A DNA stretch of 64,000 nucleotides from Lachnospiraceae bacterium (GTDB lineage Bacteria; Bacillota; Clostridia; Lachnospirales; Lachnospiraceae): contig JAFYYS010000021.1 in the NCBI GenBank assembly GCA_017546025.1, forward strand, positions 1 to 64,000, in the 5' to 3' direction. The notes beneath the pieces were generated by a model. That model was given only the letters and a program-made list of their open reading frames with translations, was not told the DNA's origin and ran no database searches. Each line of letters begins with the position of its first letter. The stretch's first letter is position 1. A program made the translations under genes and the position numbers. Below are positions 52,429 through 62,856 of the stretch, one piece after another.

Positions 52429-53139
52429 ATGAAGAAGTACCTGGCTGAGTTTATCGGCACACTTGTTCTCGTCCTCATCGGTTGCGGTACCGCCATGCTT
52501 GTCGGCTGTAATGTACCCGGCGGTTATCTGATTACCGCATTTGCCTTCGGCCTTGTCATTGTTGCCATGGCATACTCCATCGGCAACATCTCCGGCTGTC
52601 ACATCAATCCCGCCGTATCACTCGGCGTTTGCATTTCCGGCGGAATCGAAGTTACGGAAATGTTCCTGTACTGGCTTGCCCAGTGCCTCGGCGCATTTGC
52701 CGGAGCAGGTTTGCTCGCTGCAATCTTCATTCCCGCAAAGATTACGGACCAGACCGGCGGTTTCGGTACGAACGGTCTTGCCGGCGTGAATGACTGCATC
52801 GGAACCGGTCTTCTCGTTGAGTTCCTGCTGACCTTCATCTTCGTTCTGACCATCCTCGGCGTAACCAGTAAGAAAGCCAACCACGGCTCGTTCGCAGGCC
52901 TTGTAATCGGCTTCACGCTTGTTCTCGTTCATATCCTCGGCATCGGTCTTACCGGCACGTCCGTTAACCCGGCACGTTCCCTCGGCCCCGCTATCGTGAA
53001 CGCAATCGCCAACGGCAACACGGATTCACTTGCAGTGCTTTGGATCTTCTGGTTGGGACCGCTTGCCGGTGCCGCCTGCGCAGCATTTGTTTATAAGTTC
53101 CTGGAATCCGACGATAAGAAGAAGGAAAAAGCTAAATAA
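52429..53139 (+). CDS. aqpZ: Aquaporin Z-like channel (MIP family)
   Basis: 236 aa with six predicted membrane helices. Both NPA boxes are present (CHINPAVSLG and SVNPARSLG). The residues around the second box (HILGIGLTGTSVNPARS) match the water-specific AqpZ pattern more than the glycerol channel GlpF, which has Asp after NPAR. AGGAGG precedes the ATG at 52429. It moves water, possibly small solutes, across the cytoplasmic membrane. The lysine-rich C-terminus (DDKKKEKAK) is cytoplasmic. Confidence 0.92.
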   Translation: MKKYLAEFIGTLVLVLIGCGTAMLVGCNVPGGYLITAFAFGLVIVAMAYSIGNISGCHINPAVSLGVCISGGIEVTEMFLYWLAQCLGAFAGAGLLAAIFIPAKITDQTGGFGTNGLAGVNDCIGTGLLVEFLLTFIFVLTILGVTSKKANHGSFAGLVIGFTLVLVHILGIGLTGTSVNPARSLGPAIVNAIANGNTDSLAVLWIFWLGPLAGAACAAFVYKFLESDDKKKEKAK

Positions 53140-53153
53140 ATAAGTAACGCAAA

Positions 53154-53184
53154 AAGGACGGCCCCGATCGGGACCGTCCTTTTA
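53154..53184. terminator. Bidirectional terminator between aqpZ and the VanW-Dlt-like operon
   Basis: 8-bp stem AAGGACGG/CCGTCCTT with inner pairing, T run on the plus strand and A run on the other side. It lies 15 bp from both stop codons. Confidence 0.8.
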
Positions 53185-53202
53185 TTATGCCTTGCTTCGA
53201 TT

Positions 53203-54750
53203 CTAAGCAGTCTTCCGCTCCGCGTAAGGAAGCAGCTCGAGTATGATGACCGCCAAAAGATAAAAGACGATGCAGCACGCAATCGCAAACAGCGGATACA
53301 TCGTGCGGTTGCCGATGGTCTGAAAGACTTCTGCGAGATCCCGTACGCCGATGCATCCCGCAACCGTCGTCCACTGAAGCATCGTTACGGCTGTCCGTCG
53401 TGCCGGACGGGATGCGAGGAATCTGAGTCTTTGCCTGAAGCCGTATGCATTCGGACCGGTGTCATCCAGGTCTGCATCATTTTCTGTTGTTTCCGCAGTT
53501 GCCTCAGCGTCCTTTCCCGAGGCCGATGCCTCATACAGCAGACCCGCGCCGTTTAAGCCGATTCCTAGCGCCGCCGGGATGAGTAACGGTATGTGAACTC
53601 CCGCGAGCACAACGCCGCCGAGAAGCAGTAAAAGAAGCGGTACCGGAATGCTCCGGAATATGTATGCTAGTCCCGCAGCTGTCTTTTGCAGCACTGTCTT
53701 CGGGCTCTCCGAAAGTGCCTTCAGCGCAAGCCAGAATAGCGAAGCGATGACACAGGCAAGAAGCATCAAAACTGCCGTGGTGATAACAGCGGAAATAATC
53801 TGCCGATACGCACCGCCGGAAATCAGATTGTCCTTAATCACATTCATCCATCCGCTCACTTTCCTGCCCTCCTTTCGCATCAGTAAACGATATTCCTTCA
53901 CGCCGAAATAACCTGTCGACGTAAGGTATTTCGGCGTCGTCAGCGAGTGGTTCTCACTCGTCGCGCCGACACAAAGCATATCGACCCGCCCTGCCATCAG
54001 GCTGACGTAGGCCGTTTCTTCCTGCAGATTTACAAACACCGGCCGGTACCCGAGGCTTTCGGCCAAAGCACCTGCAATCTCCGCTGCCGCGCCATGCGCC
54101 GTCCCGCCTTCGTAAACCGCAAGAGGCGGTACCGCCCCGGTGACTCCGATATAAAAATTCCGTCCCGCCTTCTTCGGCGATGTTTCCGCGCGTTCCGAAA
54201 GCATTTCCTTCGGGAACGTCCACGTTTCCCCGATCAGCCCGCGCTCCAGTCCTCCAAGCGCCTTCAGTGCCGCCAGGAAGCTGTCGGCGTTACTCCTTAA
54301 TGCTTCCGATTCAGGCGCAAAGGCAAATGCGAACGAGAACCGTTCTTCTCCGCCTCCGGGCGTTTCGGCCGGGGCAAATGAGACGTACTCTCCGCTTTGC
54401 TCCAGATACTCCGCCGTCACATCCGCTGCCCAGATTGCGGAAACCTTTCCGCAGTCAAGCGCCTTCCGGGCGCTTTCAAAATCCGGGAAGGAAACATATT
54501 CCGGGACAGTCGTTCCGAAATATCCTTCCGCGAACAGCTTCATCGAGTCATCCGGCATGCCGTTTGCGACGCCTCCGACCGAGGACAGGGCAGGTATTCT
54601 GCCGTCCTTTGAAAGAGCCACCCGCACTTCGTCCGCACCGGGTCCCGAAGCCGCTTTCTTTCCTCCCGAGGCTGCTTCTGCAAAGACAAGCAGAAGTAGC
54701 AGCAGGGAAGTCAGAAGCAGGGCAATCCATTTTCCTCGTGGTGAAATCAT
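53203..54750 (-). CDS. GlnP-like binding-protein/permease fusion
   Basis: 515 aa from the ATG at 54750, four bases after the propeller gene stop. N-terminal signal/membrane segment (WIALLLTSLLLLLLVFAEA). Two SBP_bac_3-like domains follow (about 35-190, and about 195-315 with FYIGVTGAVPPLAVYEGG). The last 190 residues form the permease of polar amino acid ABC importers (LAYIFRSIPVPLLLLLLGG, TMLQWTTVAGCIGVRDLAEV). The layout matches GlnP of lactic acid bacteria, which carries binding domains fused to the permease. No ATPase subunit is nearby. Last gene of the operon from 59422. Confidence 0.75.
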   Translation of the reverse strand: MISPRGKWIALLLTSLLLLLLVFAEAASGGKKAASGPGADEVRVALSKDGRIPALSSVGGVANGMPDDSMKLFAEGYFGTTVPEYVSFPDFESARKALDCGKVSAIWAADVTAEYLEQSGEYVSFAPAETPGGGEERFSFAFAFAPESEALRSNADSFLAALKALGGLERGLIGETWTFPKEMLSERAETSPKKAGRNFYIGVTGAVPPLAVYEGGTAHGAAAEIAGALAESLGYRPVFVNLQEETAYVSLMAGRVDMLCVGATSENHSLTTPKYLTSTGYFGVKEYRLLMRKEGRKVSGWMNVIKDNLISGGAYRQIISAVITTAVLMLLACVIASLFWLALKALSESPKTVLQKTAAGLAYIFRSIPVPLLLLLLGGVVLAGVHIPLLIPAALGIGLNGAGLLYEASASGKDAEATAETTENDADLDDTGPNAYGFRQRLRFLASRPARRTAVTMLQWTTVAGCIGVRDLAEVFQTIGNRTMYPLFAIACCIVFYLLAVIILELLPYAERKTA

Positions 54751-54754
54751 AAAA

Positions 54755-56527
54755 TTATTCAATCCTTGCTCCGATAATGTATTCGCTTCGAAGACCGACA
54801 ACAAGCCGGTTTCCGAACACGGCAGGCGTTGACTCGATGTTGGCGCCGTAATTGATTCTGTCAAGCGTCTTTCCGGTCAGTGCGTCGATGAGACATATAT
54901 CCCCGTTTCCGCAGCACTGAATCAGTCGCGCCGAACCGTCCGTGCAATAGGTTAGACAGCCCGAACTCCACGCGTCGCACGGCAGCTCCTTCCGCCACGC
55001 TTCCTCTCCGGTATCCTTGTTAAGAGCAACCAGATAACCGGTGTTGACCGAAGGCGTCTTGGATACGGCAAAATAGATATACGGGGCTGCCGCACCGCTC
55101 CCCGACGCACCCGACGAGAGAATCCCGCCGGCAAGTCCCGAAACGGTGTGAACCTCATAAGGTTTCTTCCAAATGATACGTCCGTCGGTCGCATTCAGCT
55201 TATAAACGCACGCTTCTCCGGTATGATAGCGGGACGTGTGGTATTTGAGCGTCGTCCCGACATAGATTGCAGCGCTGCCGTCCTCCGAAATCTCGAGCAC
55301 CGGACTCGCGTTAATATCCTCCCCGAGATCCTGCACCCAGACGGGTTGCATCGTATTCAGATCAAGACACTGGAATATGCCGCCGTTGTCGCCGAAGAAC
55401 AGGAACCGTCCCCAAACAACCGCGCTCGATTCCGAACCCGAGCCGATATCGCTCTCGCTCGCTTCGAAGCGGTCATGCGCCGCTTTCGAATCATACACAT
55501 AGCGGACAACCTCGTCCGGATCGATGCTCAGCGTTCCCGCTTCCGCATCATACTTTGAGTTAAGCCGCACCGTATAGAGTACGCCGTTCTCACCCGGACA
55601 GATTACCGTATCGGCTTCCGCTGCGAAAACCGGCGAGCTGTCAAAGCCGTGCCATCTGCGCGGGGCGAACGTGTCATTTGCCGCAAATTCATAAAGCTTC
55701 TTCCCGTTAATCAGGCTGTACACGAATATCCGCGCGCTTACCTGCTCGCCGAACGGCCCCGTTGCTGAATCGCCGGAACCGCAAATCAGAAGCGGCATAT
55801 CAGGATGCAGGGAACACGTGCCTTTGAACGTCATGCCGACGTGAATCGGGTCGCGGGTCGCCTTTCCGGTTTCAAGGTCGAGGAAATGAATCATTCCGTC
55901 CATTCCCGGATAGATGACTTCGCAGAGGCCTTCCTTCGCTTTGGCCTCCTCGTAAAGGTTCATTTTGCTTCTCTGTTCGCGGGTCCACCCGACAACGAGC
56001 GGCTGCCCGGTCCAGCCGTTACCGGACCAGTAATTGACACCGTCATCCTTCAAGAACCGGCCGGTTTTCACCTCCCAGTCCTTTGCGAGATGCTCTCCTG
56101 CTCCCGTAACCGTGCCAAATGAGGACATGCTCCGAAGGTAGTTCCCGCGAAACGTAAGGATTCCACGGTTGGGTGTATTCGTTCCGATCAGACCGTCGGT
56201 GAATTCGATAGCCCGGCTTCTTTCATATTCCGTAACAACACTTCCGTTCACGATAACCTTAACCGAATTGAGATACTTCTCCGGTTCGGTCTCCGGCGAA
56301 GCCTTCGGCGTTCCCTTTGCAGTGCCCGCCTCCGCATGATACTCCACGCTGAGGCTTCCTTTGGTCTTCACGAAATAGTTATAGACATAGGACAGGTTTC
56401 CTTTGACCTTTACAAGCAGCACAAAAAAACCGCACAGTACTGTTATCAATACTGCCGCAGCCGCAATCAGAACGACGCGCAGAGCGCACCGTTTTCCCTT
56501 TGCCTGTTGTCCCTTTTTCTTACTCAT
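54755..56527 (-). CDS. Membrane-anchored PQQ-like beta-propeller protein
   Basis: 590 aa. Basic N-terminus, one membrane helix (VVLIAAAAVLITVLCGFFVLL, residues about 18-38), a low-complexity linker, then a beta-propeller (about 120-590) with PQQ/BamB-like blades such as HFLDLETGKATRDPI, LNTMQPVWVQDLG, LNATDGRIIWKK and LNKDTGEEAWRKEL. It should face outside the cell. It starts inside the carrier-protein gene (8-base overlap), so it is made together with the adenylase and carrier. PQQ binding itself is unproven; many such propellers only bind proteins or glycans. Confidence 0.85.
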   Translation of the reverse strand: MSKKKGQQAKGKRCALRVVLIAAAAVLITVLCGFFVLLVKVKGNLSYVYNYFVKTKGSLSVEYHAEAGTAKGTPKASPETEPEKYLNSVKVIVNGSVVTEYERSRAIEFTDGLIGTNTPNRGILTFRGNYLRSMSSFGTVTGAGEHLAKDWEVKTGRFLKDDGVNYWSGNGWTGQPLVVGWTREQRSKMNLYEEAKAKEGLCEVIYPGMDGMIHFLDLETGKATRDPIHVGMTFKGTCSLHPDMPLLICGSGDSATGPFGEQVSARIFVYSLINGKKLYEFAANDTFAPRRWHGFDSSPVFAAEADTVICPGENGVLYTVRLNSKYDAEAGTLSIDPDEVVRYVYDSKAAHDRFEASESDIGSGSESSAVVWGRFLFFGDNGGIFQCLDLNTMQPVWVQDLGEDINASPVLEISEDGSAAIYVGTTLKYHTSRYHTGEACVYKLNATDGRIIWKKPYEVHTVSGLAGGILSSGASGSGAAAPYIYFAVSKTPSVNTGYLVALNKDTGEEAWRKELPCDAWSSGCLTYCTDGSARLIQCCGNGDICLIDALTGKTLDRINYGANIESTPAVFGNRLVVGLRSEYIIGARIE

Positions 56528-56753
56528 TCGCGTTTTTATACTCCCGGATCAGACGCTCAATCCCCTCCGCCGAACGCAGACAGTTGCGGTCGATACGGGT
56601 GGGCTGCAACTCGATTCCTGCATCCTCAAGCGCCTCAAACAGCTCGATTACGGCAAGGGAATCCAAAAGCCCGCTCTCGATGAGATCGACTCCCTCGTCG
56701 TACACTGCCTTGTCCTCGCAGATTTCAAATAACAGTTTTTTTACGTCTATCAT
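56520..56753 (-). CDS. Carrier protein (DltC-like)
   Basis: 77 aa. A single acyl/peptidyl carrier domain with the phosphopantetheine serine in SGLLDSLAVIELFEALED (Ser at about 32, DSL motif). Length and motif match DltC. It overlaps the upstream adenylase gene by ATGA and the downstream propeller gene by 8 bases. It is expected to carry an aminoacyl or acyl group activated by the adenylase. Confidence 0.88.
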   Translation of the reverse strand: MIDVKKLLFEICEDKAVYDEGVDLIESGLLDSLAVIELFEALEDAGIELQPTRIDRNCLRSAEGIERLIREYKNANE

Positions 56754-58225
56754 ATGCGTTCAAGCGCCTTTCTGTCTGTTTTGCCGTTCGCATTCCGCGG
56801 CAGGCTTTCCGTAACCGTCACGGTCTTCGGAATCATGTATGCGGGAAGCATCTCAGATAGCTCTCGTCGGATGCTTTCGGGGGTGCAGCTGCTTCCTTTT
56901 TCCGGTACGGCAAATGCCTGAATTGTCTTTACAATCCCGTCCGGATTCCGCTTCGCGATAACGGCACACTCCGCCACGCCCGCAATCCGGTTGATTGCAC
57001 ACTCAATCCCGTCGAGCTCGATTCGGTAGCCTTTGTATTTGACCTGGGAATCGTTCCTGCCGGTATAGTATAAAAGACCGTCGCAGATGTACCCGCCGTC
57101 ACCGGTCCGGTAGCCGTTCACACCGTTCTCGATGAAATGTCCGCCGTCGCGTCCGTCAAGATACCCATTGAAAACCGAAGGGCCGGACAGCACAATCTCA
57201 TCTTCCGAAACGGTAATATCCGTTGCAGCCGAAGCAATCTCACCGACCGGAAGCTCTCCTTCTGCTTCCGTCATTTCCGAAGTAATCTGCACCGCACACA
57301 CCGCGCACGTTGCTTCGGTCGGTCCGTACGCATTGATCAGGCTGATATCCGGAAACCGTGCGAACAGTTTCCGTACGGGCTTCTTCTCAAGCCGCTCACC
57401 GCAGCAGAATATCGCCTTAAGCTCCGGCAAATTCCCTTTCGTAAACGTTTCCTCAATCAGACACAGTTTCAGTGCCGAGGGCGTCAGCACCGCCAGATGG
57501 ATATTTCCGTTTGCGAACACGCCTGTCATGGTTCCCGCCTGACTGCTGTCCGCTGCCGACGTGCCTGCTGCCATATCTCCCGCTGCTGCCGGTCCGCCGG
57601 GAATTGCCGTCCACGTGTGTCCATTGCAAAGCGCGTAATAAAGATCCGCGACACTTAAGTCAAAACCAAGCGCCGCCTGGTTCAGCACATTCAGCTCGCG
57701 GTACTCTGCGAGCGGTCCGAATGACCCGATCCAGCGGGCGAAATTATCCAGATTGGCATACGAAACGGGAACCCCTTTAGGCGTCCCCGTGCTTCCCGAT
57801 GTAAAAATGATATATGCGGTCTCATTGTCTGAGTTCAGTTCTATGTTATCCCGGAATCCGGCAAGTTCCGGCAGCGTAAGCACTTCCGCCTCAATAGCGG
57901 AATCGTGTGCTCCTTCCTCCCTCTGCGAAATCACAAGCGTCGCTCCGGCCATACGGACGGTTTCCGCATACCTTTTTTCAGGTACGGCGCTTCCGACCGG
58001 GACATACGCCCGCTTCGAAAGAAGGCATGCAAGCACTGCCGTAATCTCCCACACGCCGTGGTCTCCGTGAAGGATTACCGGCGAGGTTCCCTGTCTCCGA
58101 AGAAGTCCTGCCGTCTCCGAAGCCTGCTGCCACAGTTCCCGGTAGGTGATGCTCTCCCCGCCGATTCTGCAGGCAGTACGGTCCGGCCATTGCTCCGCCG
58201 CTTTACGCAGCCGCTCAGTAATCAT
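56750..58225 (-). CDS. Amino-acid adenylating enzyme (DltA-like)
   Basis: 491 aa. A complete ANL-family adenylation domain: P-loop FTSGSTGTPKG, GFDLSVADLYYAL, AYGPTEATCAV, YRTGDGGY, GRNDSQVKYKGYRIELDGIE and the catalytic lysine at the end (NANGKTDRKAL). The overall pattern is nearest to DltA, the D-alanine:carrier ligase, but the substrate pocket is not identical to DltA and the insert near 215-240 is rich in Ala and Ser. It starts four bases inside the VanW gene end (ATGA). No DltB or DltD gene is present here, so the usual teichoic acid D-alanylation is unlikely to be completed by this operon alone. Confidence 0.85.
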   Translation of the reverse strand: MITERLRKAAEQWPDRTACRIGGESITYRELWQQASETAGLLRRQGTSPVILHGDHGVWEITAVLACLLSKRAYVPVGSAVPEKRYAETVRMAGATLVISQREEGAHDSAIEAEVLTLPELAGFRDNIELNSDNETAYIIFTSGSTGTPKGVPVSYANLDNFARWIGSFGPLAEYRELNVLNQAALGFDLSVADLYYALCNGHTWTAIPGGPAAAGDMAAGTSAADSSQAGTMTGVFANGNIHLAVLTPSALKLCLIEETFTKGNLPELKAIFCCGERLEKKPVRKLFARFPDISLINAYGPTEATCAVCAVQITSEMTEAEGELPVGEIASAATDITVSEDEIVLSGPSVFNGYLDGRDGGHFIENGVNGYRTGDGGYICDGLLYYTGRNDSQVKYKGYRIELDGIECAINRIAGVAECAVIAKRNPDGIVKTIQAFAVPEKGSSCTPESIRRELSEMLPAYMIPKTVTVTESLPRNANGKTDRKALERI

Positions 58226-59043
58226 CGGATCTCCTCCTCGGGAATCAGCGAATAGTCGTAAACAACTTCGGAATGATTGTCGAGAATCAGTTCCTTGCGA
58301 ATCTCCTCGCCGCTCTTACGGTCAATCACGCTGCGGTACACCTTCGAGATGCGATAGTATTTGTCACCCTCTTTGTGATAATGCGAATCCTCCTCAAAGA
58401 GGCGATAGCGGTACGGGAGCTCGTTAATAGCCCGCAGTTCTCCGCACAGCTCTCCGTTCTCGCACCACACGAGAATCTGCACGTCGGTGTCAAGATTGTT
58501 TCGGAAACGGTAATCGCGGTTGTTGTAGCATACCGACGTCCCGGTTCCGAACGGCACGCGACGGCGCTCATCCGGGAACAGTGCGTCCGAATGATGATGC
58601 AACTCGGTTACCTTCAAAGAACTGTTCAATACGAGCCAGTGAATCATATTGGCCATCTGGCACAGCCCTCCGCCGATGCCCGACGACAGCTTACCCTGAC
58701 GGATATTGAGTCCTTCCTTGTACCCTTTGCGCGCGGTCGGACGTCCTACCGTCCGCCAGAACGAGAATACTTCGCCCGGATGAACGACGATGCCGTTAAT
58801 CTTCTCACAGGCGAGCTCGATATTGGTGACCTTATTCTCCTGCAGGCGCAGGTCTACCCCGTTCAGGCGACGCACCATCACGGAGCTGTGGCTTTTCACG
58901 ATGACCGGGAGCTGACTCTCCCGATACTCTTTCGCGAACCGTCCCCCCGTAAAGAGATCTTTGCATTTGCGCTTTAAGATCTCTTTCTCGGTTGAGATCC
59001 GATAACATGTCGGATTGATCTGACAAAACAACTTTCTTCCCAT
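58222..59043 (-). CDS. VanW family protein
   Basis: 273 aa from the ATG at 59043. VanW domain with the typical core: NKVTNIELACEKINGIVVHPGEVFSF, then GRPTARKGYKEG, GIGGGLCQMANMIHWLVL and HHHSDALFPDE. VanW proteins accompany some glycopeptide-resistance and envelope operons; their biochemical function is not established. The N-terminus has no clear signal peptide. It overlaps the adenylase gene by four bases, so both are translated together. Confidence 0.88.
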   Translation of the reverse strand: MGRKLFCQINPTCYRISTEKEILKRKCKDLFTGGRFAKEYRESQLPVIVKSHSSVMVRRLNGVDLRLQENKVTNIELACEKINGIVVHPGEVFSFWRTVGRPTARKGYKEGLNIRQGKLSSGIGGGLCQMANMIHWLVLNSSLKVTELHHHSDALFPDERRRVPFGTGTSVCYNNRDYRFRNNLDTDVQILVWCENGELCGELRAINELPYRYRLFEEDSHYHKEGDKYYRISKVYRSVIDRKSGEEIRKELILDNHSEVVYDYSLIPEEEIR

Positions 59044-59074
59044 CTTACCCCCACACAGGCTTATAAGCCTCTCT

Positions 59075-59422
59075 TTATCTTCCGGCTTCCTTCCTCCGGA
59101 GCATTTCGTCATACTGCCGGTACATCTTCTGCACGCTGTTCTCAAGCAAATAATAGTGGCAGATGTACGGCACCATAAGAATCAGGAGTGCTACCGTCAG
59201 AAGCAGCAGTCCGACACTCGGCGACGCCACCGCAAAGAAAATCGTGCCGACCGTCAGTATGGCGAAAAGTACAGTCACGATCAGGTGAATCAGGCGCTCA
59301 TGCATAAAGAATCCGATCTGAACAAGATGCTTTTCTATTTCCCTGCCGTAATCAATTCCCTCAGGCGGGTTTGCAAGCATATCGTCAATCTGTTTCAAAT
59401 ACATCTTAATCCGTTCACCCAT
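59075..59422 (-). CDS. Small membrane protein
   Basis: 115 aa from the ATG at 59422; a GTG one codon upstream is also possible. Helical N-terminus (LKQIDDMLANPPEG, YGREIEKHLVQIGFFMHER), two adjoining membrane helices (LIVTVLFAILTVGTIFFAVA and VGLLLLTVALLILMVPYIC) and a charged C-terminus. No family recognised. First gene of the VanW-DltA-DltC-propeller-permease operon, 31 bp before VanW. Confidence 0.7.
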   Translation of the reverse strand: MGERIKMYLKQIDDMLANPPEGIDYGREIEKHLVQIGFFMHERLIHLIVTVLFAILTVGTIFFAVASPSVGLLLLTVALLILMVPYICHYYLLENSVQKMYRQYDEMLRRKEAGR

Positions 59423-59549
59423 CACATGAACCTCCTTCGTGCCGATATTCCATTATATCACACGCGCCTTCGTAAGTAAATGGTTTTTAACTGTGAAAAA
59501 TACCATAAAAACCGCCCGAAAATCCGCCTGAAATCTCCTCTTTTTCACC

Positions 59550-59699: not shown

Positions 59700-59763
59700 A
59701 TTTCATAAAACAACGCGGGAACACTTCGACGTGACGAAGGACCGATGTAAGGAGGATGAAGGT

Positions 59764-61995
59764 ATGGAAGCTTGGGAAGGATTCAAAGGTCAAACCTGGA
59801 AAGACGAAATCAACGTAAGGGATTTCATTCAGAACAACTATACGCCTTATGAGGGTGACGGGGCATTTCTCGCGGGCGCAACCGAACGGACCTCGAAGCT
59901 GATGGGCAAGCTCTCCCACCTCTTCGATCTTGAGCAGCAGTTCGGCGGCGTACTCGATATCGACACCCAGCATGTTACCTCGCTTCTTAACTATAAGCCC
60001 GGCTACCTTGACAAGGACAACGAACTGATTGTCGGCCTGCAGACCGACCGCCCGCTTCGCCGCGGCGTGAACCCGTTCGGCGGCCTGAATATGACGAGAA
60101 AGGCCTGCCAGGCTTACGGCTACGAGCTCTCCGAAAAAGTTGAGGAGGAATTCCTTTACCGCACGACGCACAACGACGGCGTATTCCGCGTATACAGTGA
60201 CGAAATCAGAAAGGCCCGTCACGTCGGCATCATCACCGGTCTTCCGGATGCCTACGGCCGTGGCCGCATCATCGGCGATTACCGCCGTGTCGCACTGTAC
60301 GGCGTGGACCGTCTGATTGCCGAAAAGCAGAAGGACAAGGCTGACCTTGCCGCTTCCCAGCCGATGGATGCCGAGACCATCCGCCGCCTTGAGGAGCTTT
60401 ACCAGCAGATTAACTTTCTCGGTAAGCTGAAGGATATGGCGCTTCTTTACGGCATCGACATCAGTAAGCCCGCAACGAATTCGAAGGAAGCCATCCAGTG
60501 GCTGTACTTCGGCTACCTCGGCGCCATCAAGGAGCAGAACGGTGCTGCCATGAGCCTCGGCCGTACCTCGACCTTCCTTGACATTTATTTTGAGCGTGAT
60601 TTGCAAAACGGTGTATACACCGAGTCCGAGCTGCAGGAGCTTCTTGATGACTTCGTCATGAAGCTTCGCATGGCCCGTCACTTAAGAACACCCGAATATA
60701 ACGAACTCTTCGCAGGCGATCCGATGTGGATCACCGAGTCTGTCGGCGGCATGGGTGAGGACGGCCGCACGCTTGTCACGAAGAACTCCTTCCGTATCCT
60801 CAATACACTTTACACGCTCGGTCCTTCCGCAGAGCCGAACCTGACCGTTCTGTGGTCCAGGGATCTTCCCGAGAACTTCAAGCAGTTTGCCACGAAGGTT
60901 TCCTGCGACACCGACGCAATCCAGTACGAAAATGACGACCTGATGCGTCCGATTTACGGCGACGATTACGGTATTGCCTGCTGCGTATCCGCCATGCGGC
61001 TCGGCAAGGACATGCAGTTCTTCGGTGCAAGAGCAAACCTCGCCAAGCTTCTTCTGATGAGCTTAAACGGCGGCCGCGACGAGCGCTACAACCTGCAGGT
61101 CGGCCCGGAGATGCCGGTTTACGAGGACGAGTATCTTGACTATGACAAAGTATGCGAGCGCATGGCATTTTACAGAGACTGGCTCGCCAAGACCTACGTC
61201 ACCGCGATGAATATGATCCATTACATGCATGACAAATACGCCTACGAGAAGACGCAGATGGCTTTGCATGATACGAACGTTCACCGCTACATGGCATTCG
61301 GCGTTGCCGGCCTTTCGGTGCTTGCCGATTCCCTCTCCGCGATTAAGTTCGCGAAGGTAAAGGCCATCCGCGATCCCGAAACCGGTCTCATCAAGGATTT
61401 CGAGACGACCGGCACGTTTCCGTGCTACGGCAACGACGACGACCGCGTTGACCTTCTTGCGAAGGAACAGACCGAGCTCTTCCTCGCAGCGCTTAAGAAG
61501 ATTCCGACTTACCGGAATGCCGAGCATACGCTTTCGATTCTGACCATCACGTCGAACGTCATGTACGGCAAGAAGACCGGCAATACGCCTGACGGACGCC
61601 GCGCCGGCGAGCCGTTCGCACCCGGTGCCAACCCGATGCACGGCAGAGATAAGAGCGGCGCTCTCGCATCGCTCAACTCGGTTGCGAAGCTTTCCTACAA
61701 GACCTGCAAGGACGGCATCAGCAACACGTTCTCGATCATTCCGCAGGCACTCGGCCATAACGAGAAGGAACGCTGCAGCAACCTGATTAACATCCTCGAC
61801 GGTTACTTTGCACAGATGGCGCACCACCTGAACGTCAACGTTTTGAACCGTGAGACGCTGATCGACGCGATGAACCATCCGGAGAAGTATCCGACGCTCA
61901 CAATCCGCGTATCCGGCTACGCCGTAACGTTCAACAAGCTGACGCTTGAGCAGAAGAAGGAAGTCATTTCGAGAACGTTCCACGAAGCCGTATAA
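59764..61995 (+). CDS. pflB: Formate C-acetyltransferase (pyruvate formate-lyase)
   Basis: 743 aa from the ATG at 59764 (TAAGGAGG at eight bases); an earlier in-frame start lacks such spacing. Converts pyruvate and CoA to acetyl-CoA and formate under anaerobic conditions. The adjacent active-site cysteines are Cys406-Cys407 (GIACCVSAM), and the glycyl-radical site is Gly718 (RVSGYAVTF). Full length. The oxygen-sensitive radical is installed by PflA, encoded next. Expression is controlled by the ZTP riboswitch in the leader, which links formate production to the one-carbon pool. Confidence 0.98.
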
Positions 61996-62013
61996 ATCAT
62001 CGGCAAACCCAAG

Positions 62014-62040
62014 TCGGGCGGGAAATCCCGCCCGATTTCT
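62014..62040 (+). terminator. Intercistronic hairpin between pflB and pflA
   Basis: GC-rich stem TCGGGCGG/CCGCCCGA with a tiny A-rich loop, then ATTTCTTT. It may partly terminate, lowering pflA relative to pflB, or protect the pflB mRNA 3' end. Confidence 0.65.
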
Positions 62041-62052
62041 TTCGGAGGAATC

Positions 62053-62856
62053 ATGACCGCTTTGGAAAATACAACGATGAATAGCGGTACGGCCGTTACG
62101 GGCCGCATCCACTCGTTTCAGTCCCTCGGCGCCGTGGACGGCCCGGGGTTACGTTTCGTTGTGTTTTTGCAGGGCTGTCCGATGCGGTGCATGTACTGCC
62201 ATAATCCCGACACCTGGCTGCCGGAAGGCGGAACGGAATACACCGTAGACGAAGTCGTACAGAAGATTCTCCGCTACCGTACCTACTTTGGTAAGGACGG
62301 CGGCGTGACCGTTTCCGGCGGCGAAGCGCTCTTCCAGGCGGAGTTCGTTACCGGGCTTTTCCACGCCCTGAAGGCGGAAGGCATTCATACCTGTCTTGAT
62401 ACAAGCGGCGTACGGCAGACCGGCATAAAAACCGACAAAAACGAGTCAATTTGTTCTACAGATGTAGAACAAATTCTTCAAAATCTCCTCGCCGTAACCG
62501 ACCTTGTCATCTGCGACATTAAGTTCACGACAGAAAAAGACTACCTCGCTTATGCAGGAGGCAGTCTTTCAACCGTACTCTCTTTTCTTTCTCTTACCGA
62601 GGCCGCAGGCGTTCCGCTTTGGGTCCGCCATGTCATCGTGCCCGGCTTCACTGATTCCGAGGCCGAAGTGCAGACGATGATCGATCTGGCGCGACGCCAC
62701 ACAAATCTCAGCCGCATTGAACTGCTGCCGTTTCGTAAGCTCTGCGTCACCAAATACGAAAGTCTCGGCATTCCGTTCCGCTGCGCGGATGTTCCTGAAT
62801 GTGACGAGGCAACGATCAAACGTCTTTCTTCTCTCATTCCCAAAAACCTTCGGTAA
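62053..62856 (+). CDS. pflA: Pyruvate formate-lyase activating enzyme
   Basis: 267 aa. Radical SAM enzyme that makes the glycyl radical on PflB. The 4Fe-4S motif is CPMRCMYC (Cys42, 46, 49), preceded by the typical GPGLRFVVFLQG. SAM-binding region GGVTVSGGEAL (about 83-93). GGAGG precedes the ATG at 62053. It is slightly longer than usual because of an unusual segment at about 122-138 (TGIKTDKNESICSTDVE) encoded by DNA that contains a 28-bp palindrome. 57 bp downstream of pflB. Confidence 0.96.
   Translation: MTALENTTMNSGTAVTGRIHSFQSLGAVDGPGLRFVVFLQGCPMRCMYCHNPDTWLPEGGTEYTVDEVVQKILRYRTYFGKDGGVTVSGGEALFQAEFVTGLFHALKAEGIHTCLDTSGVRQTGIKTDKNESICSTDVEQILQNLLAVTDLVICDIKFTTEKDYLAYAGGSLSTVLSFLSLTEAAGVPLWVRHVIVPGFTDSEAEVQTMIDLARRHTNLSRIELLPFRKLCVTKYESLGIPFRCADVPECDEATIKRLSSLIPKNLR
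62448..62475. repeat. 28-bp palindrome inside pflA
   Basis: Perfect 12-bp arms AATTTGTTCTAC/GTAGAACAAATT with the 4-base centre AGAT. Base composition is much more A+T-rich than the surrounding gene. The centre CTACAGATGTAG resembles BlaI/MecI-type operators (TACAnnTGTA), but no such regulator is seen here. Confidence 0.9.

Follow-up and report, generated by a model that had tools for sequence, protein, structure and literature searches.

We analyzed a 64,000-nucleotide stretch of the genome of a Lachnospiraceae gut bacterium (contig JAFYYS010000021.1; hereafter the window), which contains a six-gene operon encoded on the minus strand in the order SMALL-VanW-ADEN-CARR-PROP-PERM. The operon is real, conserved and unusual, and its gene set seems to charge a small carrier with an activated amino acid, which VanW, in place of the usual teichoic-acid machinery, would then pass on. 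SMALL (59075..59422) encodes a 115-residue membrane protein, in which hydrophobic residues 38–93 probably form two helices. VanW (58222..59043) encodes a 273-residue VanW-domain protein that has no hydrophobic segment and carries the motif GIGGGLCQ with Cys128, as well as His151. As judged by family models, ADEN (56750..58225; 491 residues) is a DltA-like stand-alone adenylase and CARR (56520..56753; 77 residues) a DltC-like carrier with Ser32 in the motif LLDSLA; VanW, ADEN and CARR are referred to as the trio. PROP (54755..56527; 590 residues) is a PQQ/BamB-like β-propeller with a single N-terminal hydrophobic segment (residues 11–46), and PERM (53203..54750; 515 residues) is a fusion of a permuted SBP_bac_3 domain and an amino-acid ABC permease domain. 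The spacings at the successive junctions are +31, −4, −4, −8 and +4 bases, and the CARR and PROP reading frames overlap. Each junction, the membrane anchor of the propeller, and the presence of a DltA/DltC-like adenylase and carrier with neither DltB nor DltD in the operon are as an earlier, sequence-only reading of the window had described them.

The operon ends in a strong intrinsic terminator after the last gene (53145..53187, minus strand; 14-bp stem, 4-nucleotide loop and T run; −24.9 kcal/mol, z −5.99), which was revealed by a folding-energy test, the hairpin not being listed by the scan that gave the promoter-like sites. Upstream of SMALL, the promoter-like site TTTACT-17-TATAAT (59452..59480, minus strand), with TG ahead of the second hexamer, is a consensus match only, the region holding 5 such sites compared with 4.7 expected by chance from shuffles. 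SMALL matched no family in the domain-family search and, among the loci compared, was seen only in the window's own genome (2.2 Mb in 36 contigs, 98.7% complete) and in L034, where L and G numbers denote loci and genomes, respectively.

A scan of genome contigs for PROP returned 22 loci. ADEN and CARR genes adjoin PROP in nine of them and VanW does so in eight, the contig of the ninth (L040) being cut off before VanW. The association of ADEN and CARR with PROP is more than chance, and the conserved gene set that had been put forward from the sequence is borne out at these nine loci. Four (L034, L035, L038 and L042) have the gene order of the window and three (L037, L039 and L044) the order PROP-PERM-VanW-ADEN-CARR; L041 holds the trio and PROP with no PERM, and L040, a short contig that starts inside ADEN, holds CARR and PROP, also with no PERM. 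Two other loci (L036 and L043) carry PROP with split substrate-binding protein (SBP) and permease genes, and the remaining 11 are distant Clostridiaceae/Ruminiclostridium propellers, the trio being absent from both groups. The trio and PROP also occur together in G189/L086, which belongs to the same genus as the window's genome (L042 and G189/L086 are probably one genome, as are L036 and G039, and L043 and G242). VanW-ADEN-CARR is found without PROP and PERM in G043/L087 (Lachnospiraceae); G433/L138, from another family, has VanW, a frameshift-split ADEN and an intact CARR, again with no PROP or PERM; and G461/L147, from a third family, retains a broken VanW and an ADEN remnant. In L138, a gene for a Wzy_C O-antigen-ligase-like protein (L138:11021-12583) comes after the trio and overlaps the carrier gene.

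Of the five shared proteins VanW is conserved best, with 71–91% identity to the window, compared with 55–91% for CARR, 55–88% for PROP (L034–L044), 46–65% for ADEN and 43–84% for PERM; the ADEN of L034 (76% by tblastn) was left out of the ADEN alignment. The ratios of nonsynonymous to synonymous differences (pN/pS) between the window and L034 are 0.09 for VanW, 0.10 for SMALL, 0.12 for CARR, 0.15 for PROP and 0.23 for PERM, ADEN being omitted since its L034 copy has an in-frame stop. The five compared genes are under purifying selection.

Profile searches identify VanW, not PROP, as the constant partner of ADEN and CARR. The ADEN profile matched 145 of 397 family genomes at E ≤ 1e-60 and exceeded 500 bits in only three: the window's genome (806 bits), G189 (805 bits) and G043 (567 bits). 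The next 19 places, at 320–401 bits, are DltAs where tested. Among the 17 of these neighborhoods that were examined, L062, a 3.6-kb contig, was too short to judge; at 16 places (L088–L103) a membrane protein lies beside the adenylase, and the DltB cut-off was passed in all ten tested (L088–L094, L096, L098 and L103), the other six having been judged by eye. A lower match in G134 (288 bits, L104) lies outside any such dlt-like operon. In a class sample of 391 genomes, 17 matched ADEN at E ≤ 1e-85 and only the window's genome exceeded 430 bits; for the 16 others, six neighborhoods were examined (L186–L191), with L190 tested and five judged by eye. Full-length ADEN of the trio type was seen only with VanW. 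The VanW profile matched 36 places in 35 of the 391 class-sample genomes and 19 places in 18 genomes of a family sample of 250, and ADEN lies beside it at three of the 31 class places examined (the window's genome, G433 and G461) and three of the 15 family places examined (the window's genome, G189 and G043).

ADEN reaches 164 bits against AMP-binding (cut-off 29.9) and 49 bits against AMP-binding_C. Its nearest NCBIfam model is DltA, with 347 bits compared with the PRK04813 cut-off of 476, and 340 bits compared with the TIGR01734 cut-off of 560. The nearest NCBIfam model of CARR is DltC (26 bits; PRK05087 cut-off 68), and Ser32 is invariant in 10 of 10 rows. Neither protein has a hydrophobic segment. 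One phosphopantetheinyl transferase (ACPS) domain is encoded in the window's genome, and CARR can therefore be activated. In the ADEN tree, 10 trio rows and 15 dlt-linked rows lie on opposite sides of a branch with support 98/88; the L138 row, a C-terminal piece only, is placed between them.

In BcDltA, Asp197 is described as holding the amino group of the substrate, a small cavity (Leu, Met and Cys268/269) as taking the methyl group, and the Cys as selecting the D form (PMC8972799, PMC4176424). When these residues are mapped onto the ADEN rows by our own alignment, the trio adenylases keep the pocket Asp and Leu (9 of 9 covering rows) and the D-selecting Cys (10 of 10; Cys275 in the window is equivalent to BcDltA Cys269). 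The pocket Met (201) is replaced by Ala in 9 of 9 rows, and also in the tblastn piece of L138; the Thr of NTYGP is Ala in 9 of 10 rows and Ser in L138, and position 307 is Cys or Ser in 9 of 10 and Val in L138. Of the 15 dlt-linked rows, 12 keep Met, 13 keep Cys, 13 keep Thr and 14 have Val at position 307. Because the cavity is changed, the amino acid may not be D-Ala; the pocket changes alone are no proof of another substrate, since the dlt operon of L190 (DltB 488 bits, DltD 330 bits) is also without both the pocket Met and the Cys. Dlt-linked adenylases with Val/Ile for the D-selecting Cys occur in L190 and L191, and the pocket Met is gone in these as well.

Comparison with the Dlt system shows that the adenylase and carrier families, the D-selecting Cys and a cytosolic start of the pathway are shared. 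The operon differs from it in that ADEN lies across a supported branch and has the Met201 and NTYGP replacements, in that VanW is the constant partner, and in having no DltB in the window's genome and no DltD in four trio genomes. DltD was found neither in the window's genome nor in nine other genomes, among them the trio genomes G189, G043 and G433, so that it is missing from four of four trio genomes; B. subtilis, L. lactis, L089 (255 bits) and L190 (330 bits) served as positive controls. The two MBOATs of the window's genome, both AlgI-like and located on contigs other than that of the operon, reach 155 and 163 bits, where the DltB cut-off is 375 and 11 control MBOATs from dlt operons gave 467–505 bits; among the trio genomes, the MBOAT search covered only that of the window. 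Standard teichoic-acid D-alanylation is unlikely because DltD is absent from the four trio genomes and the MBOATs fall far below the DltB cut-off, and a standard Dlt pathway with DltB and DltD encoded elsewhere was rejected on these grounds. The sequence-only reading had itself named, as the outcome that would speak against it, a dltB/dltD pair elsewhere with the other genes not conserved alongside; we found no DltD in the ten genomes searched, no DltB-grade MBOAT in the window's genome, and genes that are conserved alongside.

VanW scores 142 bits against the VanW domain (Pfam PF04294), passing the curated cut-off of 27, and 182 bits against the VanW model NF033128, below its cut-off of 365. 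The domain-family search found this as the sole domain, with no peptidoglycan-binding domain, and no 19-residue window exceeds 1.01 on the Kyte-Doolittle scale, so that no membrane anchor is seen. Since the start position at 59043 is kept in nine of nine aligned rows (ATG in seven, GTG in two), the longer TTG open reading frame from 59145 is not needed. Across 20 of 20 aligned VanW rows, stand-alone VanWs included, Cys128 (GGGLCQ), Glu147 and His151 do not vary, and Cys128 and His151 would, by our own matching of residues, form the Cys-His site of VanW L,D-transpeptidases. The structure model has a mean predicted local distance difference test (pLDDT) score of 69.7 and a weak G5-like match at the C-terminus. 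A second VanW was searched for in the window's genome and not found.

According to a 2025 review (PMC12729407), VanW homologues number more than 14,000, mostly in Gram-positives, and VanW-type L,D-transpeptidase activity was identified in 2024, with a Cys-His-small residue triad and a fold not superimposable on YkuD; the activity it reports is that of two membrane-attached L,D-transpeptidases, and some VanW proteins are described there as being without it. With the VanW L,D-transpeptidases LdtCd4/LdtCd5 of C. difficile, and with the VanW of vanB/vanG clusters, the operon VanW shares the VanW domain, the GGGLCQ Cys and the conserved His, but it differs from both in that no hydrophobic segment or peptidoglycan-binding domain was found, in falling below the NF033128 cut-off, and in being tied to an adenylase and a carrier. 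In the domain-family search, none of the proteins of the operon matched a van ligase, dehydrogenase or dipeptidase. Stand-alone VanW genes lie beside a small HAD phosphatase gene, the ends often touching, at L135, L136, L137, L139, L212, L214, L215 and L217; the neighbors in L135 and L212 were tested as HAD, that of L212 also being over the PGP-phosphatase cut-off, and this neighbor may link VanW to lipids.

PROP matches PQQ_2 at 39 bits (cut-off 27.6), and PERM matches SBP_bac_3 at 35 bits (cut-off 26.4), with both the SBP and the permease domains present, one N-terminal hydrophobic segment, and several from residue 314 on. The two SBP halves match in permuted order, as shown on radA-type relatives, and the usual Arg is replaced by Ser in 8 of 8 rows at a position which we take to be that of the carboxylate-clamp Arg. 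No ATPase gene is present in the operon (an orphan ATPase elsewhere in the genome was not searched for), and the EAA coupling-loop motif was not seen by eye in four trio-type PERM rows. PERM departs from a GlnP-type fused importer in its circularly permuted binding domain, its Ser for the usual Arg, its EAA loop and its lack of an operon ATPase; it is a relic of the GlnP kind whose binding domain is permuted, and is unlikely to be an ordinary amino-acid importer, there being no ATPase in the operon and no recognizable EAA loop. In the three loci with rearranged order, an ABC ATPase and an FtsX-type permease are encoded just upstream of PROP (L037:7999-9758, L039:815-2574 and L044:8077-9836), the ATPase sitting two genes upstream with its own FtsX-type permease between; this ATPase is a candidate partner of PERM in those loci. 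Large lipoprotein-like proteins follow PERM with overlapping ends at L035:13181-17433, L042:13315-15318 and L086:3051-5057, where they may be additional genes of the operon; for the L035 and L042 proteins, no family was matched over cut-off.

The PROP profile matched 23 of 397 family genomes and exceeded 550 bits in eight: the window's genome and G189, with the trio, and G039, G355, G242, G127, G134 and G115, with no trio beside it. In the six trio-free genomes the SBP and the permease are encoded by separate genes after PROP, and a radA-like gene lies nearby; this PROP-SBP-permease arrangement near clpC- and radA-like genes was seen in six Lachnospiraceae genomes at L023/L036, L193, L192/L043, L024, L025 and L026. 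The labels rest on domain checks of two examples for radA, one for clpC and two for the HAD phosphatase, the rest being assigned by eye; RadA itself had no model there. In the PROP tree, one clade (100/100) unites the 10 trio-linked with the 6 radA-type rows, and within it the trio-linked rows and two radA-type rows form a 12-row clade (100/100). The trio link changes only once in 38% of bootstrap trees, and a single origin of the link is compatible with the tree. The operon is composed of two modules of different history, VanW-ADEN-CARR and an older Lachnospiraceae pair, PROP-PERM, which a single group of relatives has combined, in either of two gene orders.

A second PROP-like propeller is encoded in the window's genome (L022:8449-10143; G000:C31) and in its congener (L197:9061-10803; G189:C7), with no trio or PERM match beside it. 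Ten of the 11 distant PROP relatives (L045–L055), from Clostridiaceae/Ruminiclostridium metagenome-assembled genomes, carry two propeller genes side by side. Within the window, the operon is flanked by a pyruvate-formate-lyase-like gene and a pflA-like gene, the latter labeled by eye, which are divergent from it (59731-62856), and by a convergent MIP-family channel gene (52429-53139).

In our tentative best explanation of the whole, the trio forms a three-protein cytosolic aminoacylation unit with VanW as the acyltransferase. The proposed steps are that: (i) ADEN would adenylate an amino acid, probably a D- or small one, and load it onto the CARR phosphopantetheine in thioester linkage, as expected from the two families; (ii) VanW would take the aminoacyl group from CARR onto Cys128; and (iii) VanW would transfer it to an acceptor with an amine or hydroxyl group at the inner membrane face, in place of DltB and DltD, the likely acceptors being a cell-wall precursor or a membrane lipid. 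L,D-transpeptidases act through an enzyme thioester, and transfer by VanW is proposed because a carrier thioester would serve the same kind of reaction, as a more reactive acyl donor. In favor of the explanation are the recurrence of the trio across loci and families, the high conservation of VanW and its being the one VanW found in the genome, the invariant Cys128 and His151, the missing DltD in all four trio genomes tested, the lack of a DltB-grade MBOAT in the window's genome, the 98/88 branch between trio and dlt-linked adenylases, the Cys-His site of published VanW L,D-transpeptidases together with the VanW proteins that lack such activity (PMC12729407), and the precedent of lincosamide synthetase (PMC4351081). 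PROP and the binding domain of PERM, presumed to face outward, may hold, sense or pass on the product, which is a guess. The parts of this explanation are not equally secure. Aminoacylation by the unit probably follows a non-Dlt route and has a target that is not teichoic acid. That VanW performs the aminoacyl transfer is possible but somewhat doubtful, and we are more hesitant still about the fullest form of the proposal, in which VanW is a tRNA- and DltB-free, carrier-dependent aminoacyltransferase onto a wall or lipid precursor, with PROP and the permuted, apparently ATPase-free PERM as outward partners.

Several observations weigh against the aminoacylation unit. CARR reaches only 18.6 bits against PP-binding, just under the Pfam cut-off of 20.8, and the trio is rare, being found in three of 397 family genomes by ADEN score. 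Three copies are broken, by an in-frame stop in the ADEN of the window's nearest relative (L034:8240-9778), by a frameshift (L138:9377-10802) and by decay (L147:8276-9101); these reflect either assembly errors or dispensability of the unit. No ADEN or CARR match lies beside VanW in 12 of 15 family and 28 of 31 class places examined, some of which end at a contig edge (e.g. L118/L148 and L210/L217), and since most such VanWs stand alone, VanW has a function without ADEN and CARR. The structure model is weak near the active site, residues 150–175 falling below pLDDT 50, and a search for a solved structural relative of VanW found none. Either of the two MBOATs could in principle stand in for DltB, and we know of no experiment in which a VanW protein takes an acyl group from a carrier protein, nor do the papers cited here describe one.

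Among the alternatives, an unlikely one is that ADEN, CARR and VanW belong to a small-molecule pathway releasing an amino-acid conjugate (such as a dipeptide or an N-acyl amine), for which PROP and PERM would be export, binding or immunity partners. A stand-alone adenylase, a carrier and a Cys enzyme are the minimum for amide-bond formation, and the Ser at the presumed clamp-Arg position of PERM suggests that its ligand is not a free amino acid. Odd condensing partners have a precedent in lincosamide synthetase, in which a stand-alone adenylase and carrier are reported to work with condensing proteins of a non-standard kind (PMC4351081). That system (LmbC adenylase, LmbN carrier) resembles the operon in its stand-alone pair and in a condensing step other than a non-ribosomal peptide synthetase (NRPS) C domain, and family-model searches found no NRPS condensation domain among the six operon proteins; it differs in being a soluble antibiotic pathway, not an operon with membrane proteins. 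However, the operon holds no tailoring enzymes, PROP and PERM occur without the trio in six of eight close relatives, and the trio occurs without them in L087 and L138; because each is found without the other, the two modules do not need each other.

A second alternative, which we consider equally improbable, is that two unrelated functions share one transcript, the trio modifying the envelope and PROP-PERM being a housekeeping membrane complex encoded downstream. The differing module histories, seen in the PROP tree and in the six genomes with radA-linked PROP-SBP-permease genes and no trio, agree with it, as does the absence of PROP and PERM from L087 and L138, and of PERM from L041 and L040. 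On the other hand, PROP, PERM and the trio stand together in seven of nine scan loci in two different orders, the CARR and PROP reading frames overlap in the window, and the PROP-PERM pair left the radA neighborhood to join the trio.

Less likely again is a cryptic D-alanylation of teichoic acid or polysaccharide, in which ADEN and CARR would feed D-Ala to an MBOAT encoded elsewhere and VanW would be an unrelated wall enzyme. The kinship with DltA and DltC, the D-selecting Cys kept in all 10 trio rows and the presence of two MBOATs in the window's genome are in its favor, but it is at odds with the absence of DltD from all four trio genomes tested, with the low DltB scores of those MBOATs and their position on other contigs, with the altered ADEN pocket, and with VanW, not an MBOAT, being the constant neighbor.

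A parallel to ACSF4/AASDH, the animal β-alanine-activating enzyme in which adenylase, carrier and PQQ-like propeller likewise co-occur, had been suggested by the sequence-only reading and was rejected as a coincidence of order, since the propeller scores 62 bits against a PF13570 cut-off of 133, six of the eight family-sample genomes with close propeller relatives have no such adenylase beside the propeller, the adenylase is DltA-like, and the components are separate proteins here, whose adenylase-carrier-propeller order is broken in three of nine scan loci (L037, L039 and L044). That reading is partly borne out: what stands is the aminoacylation-type unit built from DltA/DltC-like components, the lack of DltB and DltD, and the conservation of the gene set; it had missed the VanW partnership and the permuted PERM domain.

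The conserved genetic tie within the trio offers the cytosolic kind of VanW a concrete candidate substrate, an aminoacyl thioester. Envelope molecules are also aminoacylated by the MprF and Fem routes. If the proposed aminoacylation unit is correct, it would add a further route for placing amino acids on envelope molecules, beside Dlt, MprF and Fem, and would give a role to the poorly understood VanW enzyme family.

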